Positions 21,630-36,393 of a stretch of DNA of 64,000 nucleotides are shown piece by piece; position 1 is the first letter of the stretch; the number at the start of each line of letters is the position of its first letter. This DNA comes from Candidatus Binataceae bacterium. GTDB taxonomy: Bacteria; Desulfobacterota; Binatia; Binatales; Binataceae. The stretch lies in the NCBI GenBank assembly GCA_035650475.1, contig DASRHP010000006.1, forward strand, positions 310,001-374,000, read 5' to 3'. The position numbers were made by a program, and so were the translations under genes. The notes below the pieces were generated by a model. That model was not told the origin of the DNA. It ran no database searches and was given only the letters and a program-made list of their open reading frames with translations.

Positions 21630-22037
21630 ATGGCCCTCAAGCTGAAGAAGACGGTCAAGCAGATGCTCGCGGAGGCCAACGCCGAAGTCGAAACCGTCAA
21701 CGCTGAGGATGCGCTCAAACTCAAGGACGATCCCAACGTGGTCTTTGTCGATATCCGCGACGTCCGCGAGCTCGACCGCGACGGACGTATCCCGGGCGCC
21801 TTCCACGCGCCGCGCGGGATGCTGGAGTTCTGGGTCGATCCCGAGAGCCCCTACTACAAGGAGATCTTCGGCTCGGGCAAGAAGTTCCTCTTTTTCTGAG
21901 CGGGCGGAGGACGCTCTGCGCTGGCAGCGCAGACTCTGCAGCGGATGGGGCTGGAGCCGGTCTGCCATCTGGGCGGCGGCTTTCGCGCATGGAAGGCGGC
22001 GGGCGGCCCGGTCGAGGGCGGCAAGCCGCAGCCGTAG
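21630..22037 (+). CDS. Selenocysteine-containing rhodanese (in-frame TGA at 21897-21899)
   Basis: The frame opens at ATG 21630 behind GAGGTGAGG and encodes a single-domain rhodanese: VFVDIRDVRELDRDGRIPGAFHAPRGMLEFW then KKFLFF. A TGA codon follows at residue 90, and the same frame continues AGGGRSALAAQTLQRMGLEP, then HLGGGFRAWKAAGGPVEGG, ending at TAG 22035-22037. In this proteobacterial rhodanese family the residue at the TGA is the catalytic cysteine of C-x-x-G-x-R-S. With selenocysteine the protein has 135 residues and all family blocks. A hairpin follows at 21915-21933. Rhodaneses move sulfane sulfur through a persulfide on this residue. A nonsense mutation is the alternative, but the second case at 25157 makes chance unlikely. 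Confidence 0.85.
21915..21933 (+). promoter_or_regulatory. Candidate bacterial SECIS hairpin of the single-domain rhodanese
   Basis: TCTGCGCT pairs perfectly with AGCGCAGA over 8 bp around a GGC loop. The loop starts 23 nt after the TGA codon and opens with G, which fits the known bacterial SECIS pattern (apical loop roughly 16-37 nt downstream, G in its first two positions). SelB would bind it. It lies inside the coding sequence. Confidence 0.7.
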
Positions 22038-22079: not shown

Positions 22080-22712
22080 TCACTCCGGGCGTGCGCGAAT
22101 CACGAAGTGGTAACGCAGCGGCTTGAGCCGTTCGGCCTTGAGGCCGAAGCGCTCCAGACGCTTTGCCGCCTCAACGACGGTGTAGGTGTGCTCGCGCGGC
22201 GGGCCGACCGGGCGCTCGACGCTGGCCTCCCAATCGGCGATCAAGATCGCGCCGCCCGGCTTGAGCAGGCCTATCATCTGGCGCGTCGCCTCGTCGCTAA
22301 GCTCGTGCAGGACGTTGACGACCAGGATCCGGTCGGCGGCGCCCTTTATCGTATCGATTGCATCCGTATGCAGCGGCTTTAGATTCCTGAGTCGGCCGGC
22401 GGCCGGCTTGGCGCGCAGCAGTTCAAGCATCCTCGGCTGCTCGTCAAGGGCGATTACGGTCAGGTCCGGGCGCTGCTCGGCGAGCGGCAGCGCGTAGGCG
22501 CCGGTGCCGGCGCCGAAATCGACCACTACGCCGCCGGGCGGCGCGTCGAGCATCGCGATCAGCCGCGCTGGCGGCAAATACTCGAAGCGCTCGGGCTCGT
22601 CGAGCAGCGCCGCGCGCGCCGGATCGAATGCCTCGGGCTGCCTGGCGCCGTGGCGTCCGTGGCCGTGATGGTGGCCGCCGCAGCGGTCATCGGGTTCGTG
22701 TTTTCCGCTCAT
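22080..22712 (-). CDS. SAM-dependent class I methyltransferase with His-rich N terminus
   Basis: This 210-residue methyltransferase has the SAM-binding motif VVVDFGAGTGAYALPLAE, then VIALDEQPRML and KPGGAILIADW, the ordinary class I series. The first 25 residues are rich in histidine and glycine with one cysteine (CGGHHHGHGRHG), which looks like a metal-binding tail. I start at ATG 22712 since this codon overlaps the upstream ArsR-rhodanese stop (ATGA), so the two genes are translationally coupled. Family members near ArsR regulators methylate arsenic or other toxic elements; a metalloid or selenium methylation role is possible but unproven, and arsenite-methylating cysteines are not evident. 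Confidence 0.85.
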   Translation of the reverse strand: MSGKHEPDDRCGGHHHGHGRHGARQPEAFDPARAALLDEPERFEYLPPARLIAMLDAPPGGVVVDFGAGTGAYALPLAEQRPDLTVIALDEQPRMLELLRAKPAAGRLRNLKPLHTDAIDTIKGAADRILVVNVLHELSDEATRQMIGLLKPGGAILIADWEASVERPVGPPREHTYTVVEAAKRLERFGLKAERLKPLRYHFVIRARPE

Positions 22713-23434
22713 GAGCCTTCGTACCCGTGCCCGTCCCGCTGCGAAACCGCTCCGGTGTTCGCCACAGACTCCACTGGCAAGCCCGCAGCTTTCCACTCTG
22801 GGTATCCATCTTCCAACCGGAAAGCATCAAAGCCGCGCCGGCGCAGTTCAGCGACCGCCTCGTAGGACAATACGCAATAGGGGCCGCGGCAGTAGGCGAC
22901 GATCTCGTGCTCGCGGGGCAGTTCGCGCATCCGGCGCTTGAGCTCGCGCAGCGGCAGGTTGAGCGCGCCGGGCAGATGGCCGGCCGCGTATTCCTCGGCC
23001 GGACGCGTATCGATCACGGTAACCAGTCCGTCGCGCATGCGCCGCAGGAGCTCCCTGCGCGAGACCGGTTCGAGGCTGTCGCGCTCGCGAAAATAGCTGT
23101 TGAGCACCTTTTCGACCGCGCCCACGTTGCGCTCGGTAATCCGGCGCAGCGCGCCCAGCAATACCACGGTCTCCGCGTCGGCGAGCCTGTAGAGCACGCG
23201 CTTGCCGTCGCGGCGCGCCTCGACCAGCCCGGCGCGGCGCAACTGCTGGAGATGCTGCGAGGCGTTGGCGACGCTGAGCCCGCCCATCGCGGCCAAGTCC
23301 TCGACGCTGCGCTCGGTTTGCGCGAGCAACTCGAGCAGTTCCAGGCGATGGGCCGAGCCGAGGCTGCGGGCGACTGCGGCCAAGTGCTCGAAAATCTCGC
23401 GTTTGGGATTCTCGCTTGACACTGCGTTGGTCAC
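22709..23434 (-). CDS. ArsR-family transcription regulator fused to rhodanese
   Basis: This 241-residue protein has an N-terminal winged-helix ArsR domain at about 14-100 (LGSAHRLELLELLAQTERSVEDLA then SVANASQHLQQLRRAGLVEARRDGKRVLYRLAD) and a C-terminal rhodanese domain at about 120-225 (VTVIDTRPAEEYAAGHLPGALNLPL, then the cysteine loop YCRGPYCVLS). The cysteine codon is ordinary here. ArsR-rhodanese fusions are known and are thought to sense persulfide or oxidant. I use GTG 23434; GTG 23422 with GGTGA upstream is an alternative. It is coupled to the methyltransferase and divergent from the desaturase-selenorhodanese operon, over dyads that could be its operator. Confidence 0.9.
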   Translation of the reverse strand: MTNAVSSENPKREIFEHLAAVARSLGSAHRLELLELLAQTERSVEDLAAMGGLSVANASQHLQQLRRAGLVEARRDGKRVLYRLADAETVVLLGALRRITERNVGAVEKVLNSYFRERDSLEPVSRRELLRRMRDGLVTVIDTRPAEEYAAGHLPGALNLPLRELKRRMRELPREHEIVAYCRGPYCVLSYEAVAELRRRGFDAFRLEDGYPEWKAAGLPVESVANTGAVSQRDGHGYEGS

Positions 23435-23445
23435 CCCATAAGCTT

Positions 23446-23475
23446 ATTCAAGACATTAATTGAATCTTTGATTCA
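23446..23475. promoter_or_regulatory. Overlapping dyads in the ArsR/desaturase divergent promoter
   Basis: Two dyads overlap. The first is ATTCAA and TTGAAT separated by 8 nt (23446-23465). The second is TGAATC and GATTCA around TTT (23461-23475). Repeated TTCA/TGAA half-sites in a 52-bp AT-rich region between a divergent ArsR gene and its neighbour are what one expects of an ArsR-type operator that controls both operons. Confidence 0.6.
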
Positions 23476-23486
23476 GGTCAACCACG

Positions 23487-24311
23487 ATGCCTGATGAGCC
23501 GCTCATCCGGCTTGGCGCGTTTATAGCCGTTCTCGCCGCGATCGCGTTATGGGAGGCCGCAGCGCCGCGCCGCGCAAGATCGTACGCGAGGTTTCGCCGC
23601 TGGCCGAGCAACCTGGCGATCGTGGCGTTGAATACGGCGCTTCTCAGAATTCTCCTCCCGGTCAGCGCGGTGGGCCTGGCGCTGGCCGGCGAAAGCCACG
23701 GCTGGGGCCTGCTGAACAATCTGCCCATTTCTTCCTGGGCCAGGATCGTCGGGGCGGTAGTGCTGCTCGATGCGGTCATCTACCTCCAGCATGTGATGTT
23801 TCATGCGGTGCCGGCGCTTTGGCGCGTGCATCGGATGCATCATGCGGACCTCGACTTCGACGTGACCACCGGCGCGCGCTTTCATCCGATCGAGATTGTT
23901 CTCTCGATGCTGATCAAATTGGGCGCGGTCGCCGCACTGGGGACTCCCGCCTCGGGCGTGCTCGTCTTCGAAGTTCTGCTCAACGCGACGTCGATGTTCA
24001 ATCACGGGAACGTTGGCGTCCCAATCCAGGTTGATCGTTATCTGCGATGGTTCGTCGTCACGCCCGACATGCACCGCGTTCACCATTCGACCATGCTCAG
24101 GGAGACCAACAGCAACTTCGGCTTCAATCTGCCGTGGTGGGATCGATTGCTGGGCACTTATCGCGACCAGCCCGCAGGCGGCCATCTGGGAATGACTATC
24201 GGCATCGAGCAGTTCCGCGACGCGCGGGAATTATGGCTCGACCGCATGCTGCTCCAGCCGTTTCGCGGCCGCGCCGGGGCCTACGCGATTAGCACGAGGA
24301 ACGCGGCATGA
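23487..24311 (+). CDS. Sterol desaturase/fatty acid hydroxylase-family membrane di-iron protein
   Basis: This 274-residue membrane protein has the histidine clusters of the family: HVMFH in LQHVMFHAVP, HRMHHAD, HNH-like spacing around MFNHGNVG, and DMHRVHH, with 3-4 hydrophobic segments before and between them. The family binds two irons and hydroxylates or desaturates lipid chains at the membrane face. It starts at ATG 23487, 12 bp after the dyads, and its stop overlaps the start of the VTT-selenorhodanese gene (ATGA), so the two form one operon. The lipid substrate is unknown; the link to a rhodanese suggests redox or membrane stress. Confidence 0.88.
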   Translation: MPDEPLIRLGAFIAVLAAIALWEAAAPRRARSYARFRRWPSNLAIVALNTALLRILLPVSAVGLALAGESHGWGLLNNLPISSWARIVGAVVLLDAVIYLQHVMFHAVPALWRVHRMHHADLDFDVTTGARFHPIEIVLSMLIKLGAVAALGTPASGVLVFEVLLNATSMFNHGNVGVPIQVDRYLRWFVVTPDMHRVHHSTMLRETNSNFGFNLPWWDRLLGTYRDQPAGGHLGMTIGIEQFRDARELWLDRMLLQPFRGRAGAYAISTRNAA

Positions 24312-25285
24312 AACGAGGAGGCAATTTCATCGTTCGAATCTCTTTGCTCGTCCTGTTGGGCGGGGCGATCGGCTGGCTCGCGTTCCATCGCCAGTTTCTC
24401 GAAAGCGCCACGTTGGCGCGCGAACTGCAGCGGTTTGGGCGATCGGCGCCGCTCCTGTTCATTGCCATTTATGCCCTCTCAACGGTTCTTTTCGTTCCGG
24501 GATCGGTGCTCACCATCGCCGGCGGCGCCTTGTTCGGTCCGGCATGGGGCGCGCTGTGGAACCTGATTGGCGCCACCCTGGGCGCGACGCTGGCCTTCGT
24601 GATCGCCCGCTATGTCGCGGCGGACTGGGCCTCGGCGCGCGCCGGCGAAGGATTGGCTCGGCTGATACGCGGGGTAGAGGAGGAAGGATGGCGCTTCGTG
24701 GCGTTTGTCAGACTCGTCCCGCTGTTTCCGTTCAACCTTGTGAATTACGCATTCGGATTAACGCGAATCCGCCTGGGAGAATACATACTTACCTCGTTCG
24801 TGTGCATGGCTCCGGGCGCGATCGCCTATACCTATCTTGGCTACGCCGGCCGCGAAATTGCCGCCGAAAGCGCGGATGCGATCCGCAATGGGCTCATCGC
24901 GCTGGCTCTGCTAGCGGCCATCGCCTTCCTGCCGCGGCTGGTTCGCCGGCTTAAGGCACAGCGCTTCATCGAGGCTGCCGAACTGAAGCGTCGCCTGGCC
25001 GATGGCGACAAGACTTTGCTTATAGACGTGCGCACCGCGGAAGAGTTCCGCGGGCCGCTCGGCCACATCGCGGGCTCGCTCAACATTCCCATCGCCGAGC
25101 TATCCGGAAGAATCCGCGAGCTGAGCGGATACCAGCGCAAGACCGTGATAACCGTCTGACGAACCGCGCGGCGCTCGGCGAGCGCTGCGACGCTGCTCTC
25201 GCAGGCGGGCTTTAAGGAAGTATCGGTGCTGCGTGGCGGGATGGAGAACTGGAATAAGATGGACTATCCAGTCGAGCGCAACTAG
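24308..25285 (+). CDS. VTT/DedA-domain membrane protein fused to selenocysteine rhodanese (TGA at 25157-25159)
   Basis: Residues 1-215 form a TVP38/TMEM64-type (VTT, SNARE-associated) membrane domain with hydrophobic segments and the FVPGSVLTIAGGALFGPAWGAL re-entrant-like motif, plus RLVPLFPFNLVNYAFGLT. A rhodanese domain follows from about 220: LLIDVRTAEEFRGPLGHIAGSLNIP, then KTVITV. A TGA codon occurs at residue 284, and the frame continues RTARRSASAATLLSQAGF, then SVLRGGMENW, to TAG 25283-25285 (325 residues). The TGA replaces the catalytic cysteine of C-R-T-x-R-R-S. A 10-bp hairpin at 25167-25189 follows. I read it as selenocysteine. It overlaps the desaturase stop. It would place a sulfur- or selenium-relay domain at the membrane. 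Confidence 0.86.
25167..25189 (+). promoter_or_regulatory. Candidate bacterial SECIS hairpin of the VTT-rhodanese
   Basis: CGCGGCGCTC (25167-25176) pairs with GAGCGCTGCG (25180-25189) over 10 bp including one G-U, around a GGC loop. The loop starts 17 nt after the TGA. Its loop is the same as that of the hairpin at 21915-21933 even though the stems differ, as expected for two SelB-bound elements of one organism. Confidence 0.72.
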
Positions 25286-29854: not shown

Positions 29855-32800
29855 ATGCCTTCGTTTTCCTTGCGCAATCCCCACACGGTGATCGTGGGGG
29901 CGTTGATCATATCGATCCTCGGCCTGACCGCGTTCGCGCGGATGCCGGTGGACGTCTTCCCGCCGCTGCACATTCCGGCGGTGGTGGTGGCGACCTTCTA
30001 TCCGGGGATGCCGCCGCTCGACATCGAGCGCGACATCACGACGCGCTTCGAGCGCTTCTTCACCCTGGGCAGTGACATCGAGCATATCGAGTCGCGCTCG
30101 CTCCCCGGTGTGAGCATCATTAAGGTCTTCTTCCATCCCGGGGTTGATCTTGGCGCCGCAGCGGCATCGCTGGGCGACCTTGCGATGGCGGATTTGCGCC
30201 ATCTTCCGCCCGGCACGCTGCCGCCGCTGGTGCTGAAGTCGGGCGCCTCGTCGCTGCCGGTGGTGCTGGTGACGGTCTCGGGCAAGGGCTTCAACCAGAC
30301 CGAGCTGCACGACCAGGCGCAGTACAACATCCGCAACTGGCTCGCTACAGTGCCCGGCGCGTCGGTGCCGCCACCGTTCGGCGGCAAATACCGCCAGATC
30401 ATGGTTTATCTGGACCGCGACGCTCTGCAAGCGCACGGGCTGACGCCGATGGAGGTGGTGCACGCGCTCAACCGGACCAATCTGATTATCCCGGCGGGCG
30501 ATGCCAAGATAAGCACGCTCGACTACTTCGTATACACGAACTCGATGATTGCCAACCCGGCCAACATCAATGACGTGCCGGTCAAGGTCGGCAAGGACGG
30601 CGCTCCAGTATACGTGCGCGACGTTGGCCACGCCGAGGACGCGGCGCAGATCCAACAGAACATCGTGCGCATCAACGGCCAGCGCTCGGTCTATATTCCG
30701 GTGCTCAAGCAGTCCGGCGCCAACACCATCTCGATCGTCAACGGCACCAGCGCGGTGCTGCCGAAGATCACCGGGATGCCGGCGGGGATGAAGCTGCGCG
30801 CGATCTTCAGTCAGGCGACCTACATCATGAACGCGATCGAGGCGCTCGAGCACGAGGCGGTCTCCGGAGCGGTGCTCGCCTCGCTGATGATCCTGATCTT
30901 CCTAGGCAGCTTCCGCTCGACGTTTGCGATTTTTCTCTCGATTCCGCTGTCGATCCTGGCGGGCGCGTTCGGCCTGCTGATGTCCGGCGCGACGGTCAAC
31001 ATCATGACCCTCGGCGGCTTCGCCCTCGCCATCGGGCGGCTGGTGGACGATTCCACCGTGGTGCTCGAAAACATCAACCGCCACCTGGCAGAGGGCAAGG
31101 AACCCAGGCGCGCCGCCCGCGAAGGAGCCGAGGAAGTTGCGCTGCCCGTCCTCGCCTCCACTATCACCACCATCATCGTGTTTTTCCCGGTGATGTTCCT
31201 TTTCGGAGTGGCGAAGTACCTGTTCAGCGCGCTGGCGCTGGCGGTGGTGCTGTCGATGCTGGCTTCATACGTGGTCGCGATGAGCGTGATCCCGATCTAC
31301 TGCGCGCGCTTTCTGACCATTGAGTCGGCGCGCGAGGGCGAGGAAGGCGCGGCGCATGGGCCGTTGGGATGGTTCATGCGCGCCTACGAGCGGCTGGCCG
31401 TAAGCTACGAGGGCTGGCTGCGCCGCGCGCTCGATCACAAGAGCGCTGTGATCGGAGCGGTCGCCGCGCTGTTCGTGGCCAGCATCGCGCTCTATCCGCG
31501 CATCGGCACCGAGCTGTTTCCGCGCACCGATGCCGGCCAGTTCATCATCGACTACCACGCGCCGGTGGGGACCCGGATCGAACTGACCGAGGCGCTGACC
31601 GCGAAGATGGAGGCGGCGGTACGACGGGTGATTCCACCCGCCGAGCTTTCAACGATCGTCTCGAACATCGGGCTGGCGCCAGGGTTTTCCTCGATCTATT
31701 CGTCCAACGCGGCTTCCGACTCGGGCTTCATGATGGTCGCCCTGAAGCCGACCCACAAGGTTTCGACCTTCGTTTACATCGAGCGGCTCAAGAAGCTGCT
31801 GCCGCAGGCGGTTCCCGAGGTGCGCACGTTCTTCACCTCCGGCAGCATTATCGATTCAGTGCTCAACTTCGGCCTGGCCGCTCCGATCGACGTCCAGCTC
31901 AGCGGCCAGACCTACCGGGAGCTGTTTCCGCTGGCGCGCGAGGTGCAGAAGACGCTGCGTTCGGTGCCCGAGGTCGCCAACACTTTCATCCCGCAGGAGT
32001 CCGATTATCCCACGCTGCGCATCAAGGTCGATCGAGTCAAAGCGGCGCGCCTGGGTCTCGACCAGCGGGCAGTTGTAACCAACGTGATCACGGCGCTCAC
32101 TTCCAACGAGATGATCGCGCCGTCGATCTGGATCGACCCCAAGTCGGGCAACGACTATTTCCTTACGGCCCAGTATTACGAGCCCGAGATCAAATCGCTC
32201 GCCACCTTGGAGAACATCCCGGTCGCGGTGGCTCCCGGCGTTGAATCGCGCCGCCAGTCGCTGATGCTGCGCGACGTCGCGACCATCGTGCCCGAGCGCC
32301 ATCCGGCCGAGGCCGACCACTACGACATCCAGCGCGTGGTTGACGTGCTGGTGGCGCCGCGCACGCAGGACCTTGGTGGTACTCAGAAAGCGGTGCTGGC
32401 CGCGCTCGCCAGCCTCCATCTGCCCAAGGATGTCGGCGTCGATCTGCGCGGCTCGGTCGCCTCGATGGAGAAGTCGTTTTCCAGCTTCGGCTTCGGCCTC
32501 GGGATGGCGGTGGTGCTGTTGTACCTGGTGATGGTGGCGCAGTTTCGTTCCTTCCTCGACCCTTTCATCATCATGTTCGCGGTGCCGATGGGGCTGATCG
32601 GCGTAATGTGGACGCTGTATCTGACCGGCACCACGCTCAACATCGAATCTTTCATGGGAATCATCGTGATGGTCGGCATTGTGGTTTCCAACTCGATTTT
32701 GCTGGTGGACTTTGCCAACCAGCGCCGGCGTGAAGGCCAGCCGCTGCGCCAGGCGGTTGTGGAATCGGCGCGCATCCGGATGCGCCCGATCCTGATGACA

Positions 32801-32980
32801 GCGCTGGCCACGGTGGTTGGGCTGATGCCGCTGGCGCTGGAGTTGGGCGCCGGCTCCGAGGCTTCGGCGCCGCTGGCGCGCGCGGCGGTGGGCGGGCTGG
32901 CGGTTTCGACCGTGCTGACCTTGTTGCTGGTACCGGCGGTGTACGAGGCGTTCTACGCGCGGCGCGAGAGTCACGGCTAG
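29855..32980 (+). CDS. RND efflux transporter, first copy
   Basis: This 1041-residue inner-membrane RND pump has twelve expected membrane helices and two large periplasmic loops. Visible are the N-terminal NPHTVIVGALIISILGLTAF helix, FYPGMPPLDIERDI (porter domain), the TM4 motif GRLVDDSTVVLEN with two adjacent acidic residues of the proton relay, and the second-half repeat GIIVMVGIVVSNSILLVDFANQ. Substrate class (drug or metal) is not certain; it is nearer to the HAE1/hydrophobic-agent type than to CzcA. It starts at ATG 29855, behind GTGAGGTTGTGGT. It is the first of two tandem copies; adaptor and channel genes follow the second. Confidence 0.92.
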   Translation: MPSFSLRNPHTVIVGALIISILGLTAFARMPVDVFPPLHIPAVVVATFYPGMPPLDIERDITTRFERFFTLGSDIEHIESRSLPGVSIIKVFFHPGVDLGAAAASLGDLAMADLRHLPPGTLPPLVLKSGASSLPVVLVTVSGKGFNQTELHDQAQYNIRNWLATVPGASVPPPFGGKYRQIMVYLDRDALQAHGLTPMEVVHALNRTNLIIPAGDAKISTLDYFVYTNSMIANPANINDVPVKVGKDGAPVYVRDVGHAEDAAQIQQNIVRINGQRSVYIPVLKQSGANTISIVNGTSAVLPKITGMPAGMKLRAIFSQATYIMNAIEALEHEAVSGAVLASLMILIFLGSFRSTFAIFLSIPLSILAGAFGLLMSGATVNIMTLGGFALAIGRLVDDSTVVLENINRHLAEGKEPRRAAREGAEEVALPVLASTITTIIVFFPVMFLFGVAKYLFSALALAVVLSMLASYVVAMSVIPIYCARFLTIESAREGEEGAAHGPLGWFMRAYERLAVSYEGWLRRALDHKSAVIGAVAALFVASIALYPRIGTELFPRTDAGQFIIDYHAPVGTRIELTEALTAKMEAAVRRVIPPAELSTIVSNIGLAPGFSSIYSSNAASDSGFMMVALKPTHKVSTFVYIERLKKLLPQAVPEVRTFFTSGSIIDSVLNFGLAAPIDVQLSGQTYRELFPLAREVQKTLRSVPEVANTFIPQESDYPTLRIKVDRVKAARLGLDQRAVVTNVITALTSNEMIAPSIWIDPKSGNDYFLTAQYYEPEIKSLATLENIPVAVAPGVESRRQSLMLRDVATIVPERHPAEADHYDIQRVVDVLVAPRTQDLGGTQKAVLAALASLHLPKDVGVDLRGSVASMEKSFSSFGFGLGMAVVLLYLVMVAQFRSFLDPFIIMFAVPMGLIGVMWTLYLTGTTLNIESFMGIIVMVGIVVSNSILLVDFANQRRREGQPLRQAVVESARIRMRPILMTALATVVGLMPLALELGAGSEASAPLARAAVGGLAVSTVLTLLLVPAVYEAFYARRESHG

Positions 32981-33267
32981 CACGCACAGATGCGGAGGAG
33001 CTTGATGCCCCCGTTGCAGGGAGAAGCAGGGATGCAGTCACAGCTTGCTTTTCGAACTAAAACTTGCCGGTTGCTGGGCCGCTGGGTGCTGAGTAGACTT
33101 CGAGCCGGTTGGGGGGCCGCAGACACATGGATTGATCTCGCCGGACCGTTCCCTTCCTGGCTCGCCGCATGGGTCGGCGGCGGCGCGCCCCGCCGCGCCG
33201 GTTTTCGCGTGGTCCGCGGGACGAAGCGAGTCTTCTTGAATCGGCCCTGCCCCGCGAGGTCACACAG
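32981..33267. other. Intergenic leader between the two RND genes
   Basis: This 287-bp region holds no gene I can support. Short open frames in it are arginine- and tryptophan-rich shadows. I see no convincing terminator, so the second pump may be cotranscribed with the first or have its own promoter. Confidence 0.5.
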
Positions 33268-36200
33268 ATGGCAGGCTTCTCGCTGCGCAATCCCCACACG
33301 GTGATCGTGGGGGCGCTGATCATATCGATCCTCGGCCTGACCGCGTTCGCGCGGATGCCGGTTGACGTCTTTCCCCGGCTCAACATCCCGGCGGTCGTGG
33401 TTGCGACCTTCTACCCGGGGATGCCGCCGCTCGACATCGAGCGCGACATCACCACCCGTTTCGAGCGCTTCTTCACCCTGGGCAGTGACATCGAGCATAT
33501 CGAGTCGCGCTCGCTGCCCGGCGTCAGCATCATCAAGGTGTTCTTCCATCCCGGGGTTAACCTCGGCGCGGCCGCTGCATCGCTGGGCGACCTTGCGATG
33601 GCGGACCTGCGTCACCTACCGCCTGGCACGCTCCCGCCGCTGGTGCTGAAGTCCGGTGCCTCGTCGCTGCCGGTGGTGCTGGTGACGGTCTCAGGCACAG
33701 GTTTCACGCAGTCCGAGCTGCGCGACCAGGCCCAGTACAACGTGCGCAACTGGCTGGCCACCATCGAGGGCGCGTCGGTGCCGCCGCCATTCGGCGGCAA
33801 GTACCGCCAGATCATGGTTTACCTGGACCGCGACGCCTTGCAGGCGCGCGGGCTGACGCCGATGGACGTGGTGCATGCGCTCAACCGCGCCAACCTGATC
33901 ATCCCGGCGGGCGACGCCAAGATAGGCGCGCTGGATTACTTCGTCTACACCAACTCGATGATCGACAACCCGGCGAACATAAATGACGTGCCGATCAAGG
34001 TTGGCCTGGGACAGGCGCCGGTGTACGTGCGCGACGTTGGTCATGCCGAGGACGCGGCCCAGATCCAGCAGAACATCGTGCGCATCAACGGCCAGCGCTC
34101 GGTCTATATCCCGGTGCTCAAGCAGGGCGGCGCCAACACGCTCAACGTGGTCGATGGCATCGAGCGCGTCCTCGGGCACGTCACCGGGATGCCGGCCGGG
34201 ATGGGGTTGCGCGCGATCTTCAGCCAGGCGACCTACGTGCGCGCGGCGGTCACGGCGCTCGAGCACGAGGCGGTCTCCGGCGCGGCGCTCGCCTCACTGA
34301 TGATTCTGATCTTCCTCGGCAGTTTCAGCTCGACGTTTGCGATCTTCCTGTCGATCCCGTTGTCGATTCTGGCCGGTGCGTTCGGCCTGATGATGTCCGG
34401 CGCGACCATCAACATTATGACCCTGGGTGGCTTCGCCCTCGCCATCGGGCGCCTGGTCGATAACTCGGTGGTGGTGCTGGAAAACGTCAATCGCCATCTG
34501 GCCGAAGGCGCGCCGCCGGCCGAGGCGGCGCTGCGCGGCACCGACGAGGTCGATCTGCCGGTGCTCGCCTCGACCCTGACCACGATCATCGTGTTCTTCC
34601 CGGTGATGTTTCTCTTCGGCGTGGCCAAGTACCTGTTCGGTGCGCTGGCGCTGGCGGTGGTGCTCTCGATGCTCGCCTCGTACGTGGTCGCGGTGACGGT
34701 GATCCCGATCTACTGCGCGCGGTTTTTGACCACCGAGTCCGCGCGCGCGGCCGACGCGGGCGCCGGCGCCGGCCCGTTTGCCCCGTTCATGCGCGCCTAC
34801 GGGGGCTTCGCTCGCCGCTACGAGCATTGGTTGGAGGCCGCGCTCGACCACAAAGCGCGGGTGATCGGCGCGATCACGCTGCTGTTCGTCGCCAGCATGG
34901 CGATCTATCCGTGGATCGGCACCGAGCTGTTTCCGCGCACCGACGCCGGCCAGTTCATCATCGACTACCGCGCGCCGGTCGGCAGCCGCATCGAGCTCAC
35001 CGAGTCGCTGACCGAGCGGATGGAGGCGGCGGTGCGCCGGTTGATTCCACCCGCCGAGCTTTCGACGATCGTCTCGAACATCGGGCTGGCGCCGGGCTTC
35101 TCGTCGATATACTCGCCCAACGCGGCCGCTGATTCGGGTTTCATGATGGTCGCCCTGAAGCCGACCCACAAAGTTTCGACCTTCATTTACATCGAGCGGC
35201 TCAAGAAGCTGCTGCCGCAGGCGGTGCCCGAGGCGAGCACCTTCTTCACCTCCGGCAGCATCATCGATTCGGTGCTCAACTATGGGCTGGCGGCGCCGGT
35301 CGACGTCCAGCTCAGCGGCCAGACCTACAAGGAGCTCTTCGCGCTGGCGCGCGACGTCGGGGAGGCGTTGCGCGCGGTGCCCGAGGTCGCCAGTGCCTTC
35401 ATCCCGCAGGAATCGGGCTATCCGACGCTGCGGATCAAGGTTGACCGGGTCAAGGCCGCGCGGCTGGGACTCGACCAGCGCGACGTGGTAACCAACGTGA
35501 TCACGGCGCTTACCTCCAACGAGATGATCGCGCCCTCGATCTGGATCGATCCCAAAACGGGCAACGACTATTTCCTCACCGCTCAATACTACGAGCCCGA
35601 GATCAAATCGCTCTCCACCCTGGAGAACATTCCGGTCGCCACGGCGGCCGAACGCCATGCGCGAAGCGACGCCCTGACGCTGCGCGACGTCGCGACCATC
35701 GTGCCCGAGCGCCATCCGGCCGAGGCCGACCACTACGACATCCAGCGCGTGGTTGACGTGCTGGTCGCGCCACGCACCGACGACGTCGGCGGCGCGCAGA
35801 AGGCGGTGCTGGCGGCGCTCGGCAAACTGCGGATGCCCTCCGACGTGCAGGTTGCGCTGCGCGGCTCGGTGGCGGCGATGGAGAAGTCGTTCTCCAGCTT
35901 CGGCTTCGGTTTGGGGATGGCGGTGGTGCTCCTTTACCTTGTGATGGTGGCGCAGTTCCGCTCCTTCCTCGACCCGCTGATCATCATGTTTGCCGTGCCG
36001 ATGGGACTGATCGGCGTCATGTGGACGCTGTATCTGACCGGCACCACGCTCAATATTGAATCGTTCATGGGGATTATTGCGATGGTTGGGATTGTGGTTT
36101 CCAACTCGATTCTGCTGGTGGACTTCGCCAACCAGCGCCGAAACGAGGGCCAGCCGCTGCGCCGGGCCGTAGTCGAGGCCTCGCGCATCCGGATGCGTCC

Positions 36201-36393
36201 GATCCTGATGACCGCGCTGGCCACCGTGGTCGGCCTGCTGCCGCTGGCGCTGGAGGTGGGCGCCGGCTCCGAGGCTTCGGCGCCGCTGGCGCGCGCGGCG
36301 GTAGGTGGGCTCGCGGTTTCGACCGTGCTCACTCTGTTGCTGGTGCCTGCAGTGTACGAGGCGTTTTACGCGCGGCGCGAGGTGACGCGATGA
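33268..36393 (+). CDS. RND efflux transporter, second copy
   Basis: This pump is also 1041 residues and matches the first copy along its whole length, with identical blocks such as VDVFPRLNIP-like, GVSIIKVFFHPGV and SNEMIAPSIWID. The TM4 motif is GRLVDNSVVVLEN, so the second acid of the first copy (Asp) is Asn here (AAC at 34462-34464). I start at ATG 33268 behind GAGG, giving the same N terminus (FSLRNPHTVIVG); an upstream in-frame ATG adds only arginine-rich sequence. The stop overlaps the adaptor start. It may form a mixed trimer with copy one, as MdtB and MdtC do. Confidence 0.92.
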   Translation: MAGFSLRNPHTVIVGALIISILGLTAFARMPVDVFPRLNIPAVVVATFYPGMPPLDIERDITTRFERFFTLGSDIEHIESRSLPGVSIIKVFFHPGVNLGAAAASLGDLAMADLRHLPPGTLPPLVLKSGASSLPVVLVTVSGTGFTQSELRDQAQYNVRNWLATIEGASVPPPFGGKYRQIMVYLDRDALQARGLTPMDVVHALNRANLIIPAGDAKIGALDYFVYTNSMIDNPANINDVPIKVGLGQAPVYVRDVGHAEDAAQIQQNIVRINGQRSVYIPVLKQGGANTLNVVDGIERVLGHVTGMPAGMGLRAIFSQATYVRAAVTALEHEAVSGAALASLMILIFLGSFSSTFAIFLSIPLSILAGAFGLMMSGATINIMTLGGFALAIGRLVDNSVVVLENVNRHLAEGAPPAEAALRGTDEVDLPVLASTLTTIIVFFPVMFLFGVAKYLFGALALAVVLSMLASYVVAVTVIPIYCARFLTTESARAADAGAGAGPFAPFMRAYGGFARRYEHWLEAALDHKARVIGAITLLFVASMAIYPWIGTELFPRTDAGQFIIDYRAPVGSRIELTESLTERMEAAVRRLIPPAELSTIVSNIGLAPGFSSIYSPNAAADSGFMMVALKPTHKVSTFIYIERLKKLLPQAVPEASTFFTSGSIIDSVLNYGLAAPVDVQLSGQTYKELFALARDVGEALRAVPEVASAFIPQESGYPTLRIKVDRVKAARLGLDQRDVVTNVITALTSNEMIAPSIWIDPKTGNDYFLTAQYYEPEIKSLSTLENIPVATAAERHARSDALTLRDVATIVPERHPAEADHYDIQRVVDVLVAPRTDDVGGAQKAVLAALGKLRMPSDVQVALRGSVAAMEKSFSSFGFGLGMAVVLLYLVMVAQFRSFLDPLIIMFAVPMGLIGVMWTLYLTGTTLNIESFMGIIAMVGIVVSNSILLVDFANQRRNEGQPLRRAVVEASRIRMRPILMTALATVVGLLPLALEVGAGSEASAPLARAAVGGLAVSTVLTLLLVPAVYEAFYARREVTR

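Follow-up and report, generated by a model that had tools for sequence, protein, structure and literature searches.

The window analysed here is a stretch of 64,000 nucleotides from a Candidatus Binataceae bacterium (contig DASRHP010000006.1, positions 310,001 to 374,000 of the forward strand), and it contains a gene in which a VTT membrane domain is fused to a rhodanese. An in-frame TGA occupies the position of the catalytic cysteine of the rhodanese domain. The fusion is probably a membrane-anchored selenorhodanese in which the TGA is read as selenocysteine (Sec) by way of a hairpin of the selenocysteine insertion sequence (SECIS) type, and it would be likely to move sulfane sulfur at the inner membrane face. 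Sec coding at codon 284 is strongly supported by comparison of the gene with its relatives. Coordinates are collected in Table 1.

The fusion gene and its in-frame TGA

An earlier note on this DNA had described a VTT domain fused to a rhodanese with TGA at the catalytic Cys and a frame running on to TAG, 325 residues in all, and both translation and Pfam confirmed this. When the gene was translated with TGA as U, the only in-frame TGA was codon 284; the open reading frame (ORF) under the ordinary code has 283 residues. The context around residue 284 is VITV-U-RTARRSASAATLLSQAGF...RGGMENWNKMDYP. The protein belongs to PF00581, the score being above the cut-off and the catalytic residue lying in a C/U-x4-R loop (U284 to R289). 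The active-site motif of the fusion sequences is U-R-T-x-x-R-S with no Cys nearby. Two models for selenoproteins of this kind scored below their cut-offs against the fusion protein, namely the rhodanese-related (seleno)protein model NF041203 (50.7 of 115 bits) and the TsoB rhodanese/DsbD selenoprotein model NF045694 (29.1 of 805 bits).

A structure model made from 67 rows with the TGA read as Cys had a mean predicted local distance difference test score (pLDDT) of 84.7 and a predicted template modelling score (pTM) of 0.64. It replaced an earlier model from 10 rows, which was poor (mean pLDDT 62.5). The fold search was informative for the rhodanese part only, and as modelled this part appears to have the loop and fold of a sulfurtransferase. 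Close homologs carry the Joint Genome Institute name YdjX (TVP38/TMEM64), the TVP38/TMEM64 subfamily being COG0398, an assignment taken from the names alone. Those homologs that have a species name are labelled Candidatus Binataceae or Candidatus Binatus, which the NCBI taxonomy places in phylum Binatota.

Table 1. Positions of the features discussed, numbered from the first letter of the window.
Feature	Position	Strand	Details
VTT-rhodanese fusion gene	24308..25285	+	TGA taken as Sec gives 325 residues; ends in TAG
VTT domain PF09335	24494..24844	+	residues 63-179; 92.9 bits, Pfam cut-off 33.9
Rhodanese domain PF00581	24974..25258	+	residues 223-317; 73.4 bits, Pfam cut-off 22.2
Predicted Sec codon	25157..25159	+	in-frame TGA (codon 284) at the rhodanese catalytic Cys position
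Hairpin of bacterial SECIS type	25171..25185	+	GCGCTC-GGC-GAGCGC; loop 17 nt after UGA
Second predicted selenoprotein, single-domain rhodanese	21630..22037	+	PF00581, 69.3 bits; TGA 21897-21899; hairpin 21915-21933
Fatty acid hydroxylase gene, PF04116	23487..24311	+	TGA stop overlaps ATG of fusion gene
ArsR-type regulator fused to rhodanese	22709..23434	-	divergent from hydroxylase gene

Conservation of the TGA and of the frame beyond it

Among 148 genomes of the class, 14 full-length fusions were located, eight with TGA and six with Cys at the codon. Within the family (41 genomes) the TGA form was found in the window's own genome (G000) and in G313, G299, G308 and G314, at 71-73% identity to the window, while five genomes had Cys and no stop, at six loci in all (two in G321 and one each in G325, G322, G315 and G319). 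The class search added three more full-length TGA fusions, from G368, G343 and G344 (families f100 and f96, genomes 74-88% complete), which are 48-52% identical and each of which has the TGA at this very codon. A ninth TGA gene, in G324 (locus L063) of the same genus, has kept the TGA, the hairpin and the downstream part and has lost about 60 rhodanese residues in frame, a loss that could stem from decay or faulty assembly or could mark a new form. The TGA at the catalytic codon is thus present in the window and in eight related genomes with SelB, G324 included. In G326 the fusion frame is broken by TAG. When 297 genomes were drawn evenly from the phylum, with at most about seven candidates scored per genome, no match outside G000 was better than 8.7e-77.

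The scan of named genomes covered the best 80 of at least 576 relatives, and the codon at the site in these 80 loci was TGC in 59, TGT in 18 and TGA in three. None had TAA or TAG there; L094 has a TAA, but away from the site. Six of the 80 (L082-L086 and L118) seem to repeat genomes of the family search. The Cys fusion of Thiocapsa roseopersicina, which can be cultured, is locus L127. An in-frame TGA is therefore conserved where homologs have Cys, which is the pattern by which bacterial selenoproteins are recognised.

Downstream of the TGA, dN (nonsynonymous divergence) was 0.08-0.26 and dS (synonymous divergence) 0.40-2.27, with dN below dS in all 10 ortholog pairs, and the reading frame after the TGA is by this measure under selection.

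The SECIS-type hairpin

The six-pair stem is intact at the same place, 17 nt after the UGA, in all six close Sec genes (window, L054-L057 and L063), with GGC, GTC or GGT as the loop. At this place 82 Cys rows, about 79 distinct records, had from one to five pairs and never six. The residue at position +8 is Ser in 6/6 Sec genes against 2/82 Cys rows. In the five full-length Sec genes the third codon base is invariant in 71 of 322 columns, and the single run of at least four such bases covers residues 287-292, spanning the hairpin codons 288-292.

Limits published for bacterial SECIS elements, as given in the accessible text, are a loop of 3-9 nt, a stem of 4-16 bp and a distance of 16-37 nt after the UGA, together with a G in the first two loop bases and an energy of -7.5 or lower (PMC13188914). 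The window hairpin falls within them (loop GGC, at least 6 bp, 17 nt), and folding energies for the whole 45-50 nt were -20.3 and -25.1 kcal/mol. Of the more distant genes, those of G343 and G344 share this spacing and their stem is capped by a GGTCA loop; in G368 the stem has seven pairs and the distance is 21 nt.

Sec machinery

The window's genome (3.83 Mb, 95% complete) encodes tRNA-Sec, SelA, SelB and SelD, the set expected where a selenoprotein is made. The tRNA-Sec lies on the same contig outside the window (71.7 bits) and was called tRNA-SeC with anticodon tca by ARAGORN. SelB scored 340.3 bits, or 368.3 with its second piece, SelA 567.8 bits and SelD 375.6 bits, and SelD carries a single in-frame TGA of its own. 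SelB was also above cut-off in G368, G343, G344 and all six family genomes with a TGA fusion. The SelB and SelD genes adjoin (G000:C10:247205-250192). Another above-cut-off Rfam match to tRNA-Sec was rejected as ARAGORN called it tRNA-Ser. Across the whole window Rfam at gathering thresholds gave no match and ARAGORN no tRNA.

The earlier note had asked for comparison with Cys forms, and Cys orthologs were found at the same codon. It had also named two grounds on which its reading would fall, a random stop or decayed downstream frame in relatives and the absence of Sec machinery. Since relatives keep the TGA at the same codon with the frame intact, and since tRNA-Sec, SelA, SelB and SelD are present, neither ground holds.

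Cys and Sec forms in the tree

On a tree with 8 Sec and 45 Cys rows, 53 in all, two Cys/Sec changes were needed (bootstrap range 2-3), and none of 200 bootstrap trees needed just one. The tree leaves out 34 of the 77 Cys loci among the best 80 named-genome loci, as well as the deleted G324 copy. A single origin of Sec, suggested by a tree with five Sec rows, was dropped once three more distant Sec rows had been added and two changes were needed; one of these rows, L196, is a long branch. The root was not inferred, so gain and loss of Sec look alike in this tree, but Cys is far commoner and a change from Cys to Sec is on that count the likelier direction.

Evidence against Sec decoding and alternative explanations

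Several observations weigh against Sec decoding of a functional rhodanese. The six pairs of the hairpin are invariant, so that they offer no covariation. Synonymous recoding of a single gene gives a stem of this kind by chance with a frequency of 1.9-6.9%, and the folding of single sequences is weak (z values of -1.11 and -1.40 for 50 nt, -1.19 and -0.28 for 59 nt). Some stem of at least six pairs occurs elsewhere within the allowed spacing in 17 of the 82 Cys rows. SelB is present in 31 of the 35 other family genomes and its presence therefore does not discriminate. The G324 rhodanese lacks its 60 or so residues, and in six family genomes (G304, G306, G307, G309, G284 and G323; 56-69% identity) the close VTT genes match only up to the rhodanese, which together indicate that the rhodanese domain is dispensable.

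If the TGA were a plain stop, the gene would encode a truncated VTT protein followed by a decaying rhodanese tail. The deletion in G324 and the six VTT matches ending before the rhodanese would fit, and gene callers do end the ORF at the TGA. However, eight full-length genes have TGA at the same codon and none has TAA or TAG there, the frame beyond it is selected and the hairpin is not found in the Cys rows, all of which makes a plain stop highly improbable. The TGA might instead be decoded as some other amino acid, under an altered genetic code or by a tRNA for Cys, and insertion of Cys would be harmless given the Cys orthologs. Such decoding is hardly credible given that the upstream hydroxylase gene terminates in TGA where it overlaps the fusion ATG, that the L054 ortholog terminates in TGA after its internal TGA, and that the genome has the full Sec set with a SelD carrying its own in-frame TGA.

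Two further explanations accept the Sec and differ on its use. The rhodanese might carry selenium at the membrane as a perselenide, either to supply SelD or as a means of detoxification, making the fusion a selenium-delivery or selenite-binding protein. The genome does use selenium and a DedA protein is reportedly linked to selenite resistance, to go by the title of Ledgham 2005. We consider this unlikely, given that Cys forms are common (77 of the best 80 loci, many in sulfur oxidisers by name) and that the regulator and the neighbouring genes indicate sulfur, not selenium genes. Equally, the fusion might be a redox enzyme acting on membrane lipids or disulfides instead of a sulfurtransferase. 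The gene immediately upstream codes for a fatty acid hydroxylase in 69 of 75 loci, and database names put the VTT part in TVP38/TMEM64, a subfamily which is proposed, in the accessible part of one paper, to hold phospholipid flippases (PMC10127716). A loop and fold of sulfurtransferase type and the motif U-R-T-x-x-R-S without a neighbouring Cys speak against such an activity, and it too is improbable.

Proposed mechanism

Returning to a selenorhodanese that moves sulfane sulfur, we infer the following for its mechanism and its substrate, which may be persulfide, selenide or another compound. SelB would recode the UGA at the hairpin. Sec284 would sit in a loop of six residues that Arg289 closes, and its selenolate, by analogy with Cys rhodaneses, would accept sulfane sulfur from a donor, either thiosulfate or a small persulfide, and pass this sulfur on to an acceptor thiol. 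What Sec would add is an easier discharge of the sulfur or protection from over-oxidation. Through its VTT part the enzyme would be fixed in the membrane, and this part may also transport phospholipid. Sensing of sulfane sulfur would fall to the ArsR-rhodanese, through which the hydroxylase and the selenorhodanese would be controlled jointly, much as YgaV acts over YgaP in E. coli.

A broader and more tentative idea, which we regard as possible though doubtful, is a membrane chalcogen-stress module of Binatota-like genomes and Proteobacteria. In it the ArsR-rhodanese would sense sulfane sulfur and switch on a lipid hydroxylase together with a VTT-rhodanese coupling sulfane-sulfur chemistry to membrane lipids, the catalytic thiol of the latter having been replaced by a selenol at least twice.

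Neighbouring genes

The count of 69 loci with the hydroxylase gene directly upstream of the fusion refers to those of the best 80 that have at least 900 nt upstream. In the 68 loci of the best 80 with 1900 nt or more upstream, a divergent ArsR-rhodanese lay beside the hydroxylase in 43 and elsewhere upstream in 4, and none was found by the test used in 21. In G343 and G344 the hydroxylase, fusion and ArsR-rhodanese are all on one strand. The neighbourhood of ArsR-rhodanese, fatty acid hydroxylase and VTT-rhodanese (22709-25285) is conserved across Proteobacteria. The product of 22709-23434 passes the ArsR/SmtB model NF033788 (71.2 bits, cut-off 55) and falls below the cut-off of the BigR sulfite/sulfide-sensing repressor model (47.6 of 155 bits). 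A literature search for rhodanese together with sterol desaturase and ArsR found nothing.

Convergent with the fusion gene is an MsrA gene (PF01625, 25294-25851, minus strand) whose active site, GCFWC, is the Cys form. Further along, two long and similar tandem ORFs (29855-32980 and 33169-36393, plus strand) resemble what we take to be efflux pump genes of the resistance-nodulation-division (RND) type.

Other rhodaneses with in-frame TGA

The earlier note had mentioned a second TGA rhodanese nearby, and this proved to be real (21630-22037). Its TGA sits in FFUAGGGRS. Of the 28 full-length family rows that are at least 70% identical, nine have TGA, and all nine have it at the same site with a stem core, judged by eye, of CTGCGCT/AGCGCAG. 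The window's genome also has a stop-free homolog of this gene at G000:C12:294938-295330.

A third kind of rhodanese was seen at L206, L207 and L209 (G325, G303 and G302). It has YCA(S/K)(D/F)TU, with Sec ending the loop (C-x4-U), and is joined to what is presumably a potassium channel pore, judging by an S(V/I)GYGD motif. At L208 (G320) the motif of a rhodanese is YCTU, of the type C-x-U, where U is an in-frame TGA; CxU is the motif of form 3 of the rhodanese-like selenoproteins in the accessible text of PMC13188914.

Database proteins ending at the site

The 120 nearest database proteins, the best of 7532, were examined at the site. Of these, 99 stop one residue before it, the window's own protein included, and end in ITI, VTI, TTI, VTV, ITV, VAI or VAL. 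For the other 98 short proteins the stop would likewise be a TGA. The remaining 21 are full length with Cys at the site (17 by motif, 4 by eye). As annotated, the short proteins therefore lack the catalytic residue along with the remainder of the domain.

DISCUSSION

The predicted bacterial selenoproteome would gain a membrane-fused selenorhodanese, and the example shows how such selenoproteins stay hidden when annotation ends before the Sec site. Because the class holds this fusion in natural forms with Sec and with Cys, the benefit of selenium in sulfur transfer can be tested directly, and the conserved neighbours suggest a connection, open to experiment, from the sensing of sulfane sulfur to the modification of membrane lipids. 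The earlier note knew of no such fusion with Sec. For the Sec form of a DedA/VTT-rhodanese fusion this stood, none being found in a literature search that missed most subscription journals. Cys DedA-rhodanese fusions, however, have been published before (PMC10127716), and the novelty is confined to the Sec form.

These Cys fusions have the same two Pfam domains in one chain as the window protein. They are described for COG0586 and the accessible part of their description mentions no Sec (PMC10127716), whereas the window family is YdjX/TVP38 by database names. Rhodanese-like selenoproteins have been sorted into forms 1-5, NF041203 and TsoB (NF045694) among them, and like the fusion they are rhodaneses with Sec in the active-site region. 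Their listed motifs are UxxS, UxxG, CxU and UxxxxU and, unlike the fusion, none has a VTT or DedA part in the accessible text (PMC13188914). The persulfide dioxygenase-rhodanese fusion BpPRF (5ve3, 5ve4 and 5ve5) also differs, being Cys-based with a dioxygenase partner. In gene arrangement the window module resembles ygaVP of E. coli, which likewise pairs a membrane-bound rhodanese with an ArsR-type regulator but has other partners. YgaP differs in having a two-helix membrane part and Cys, and the accessible portions of the two papers mention no hydroxylase partner and name no rhodanese in the regulator (PMC9774250, PMC4730233).
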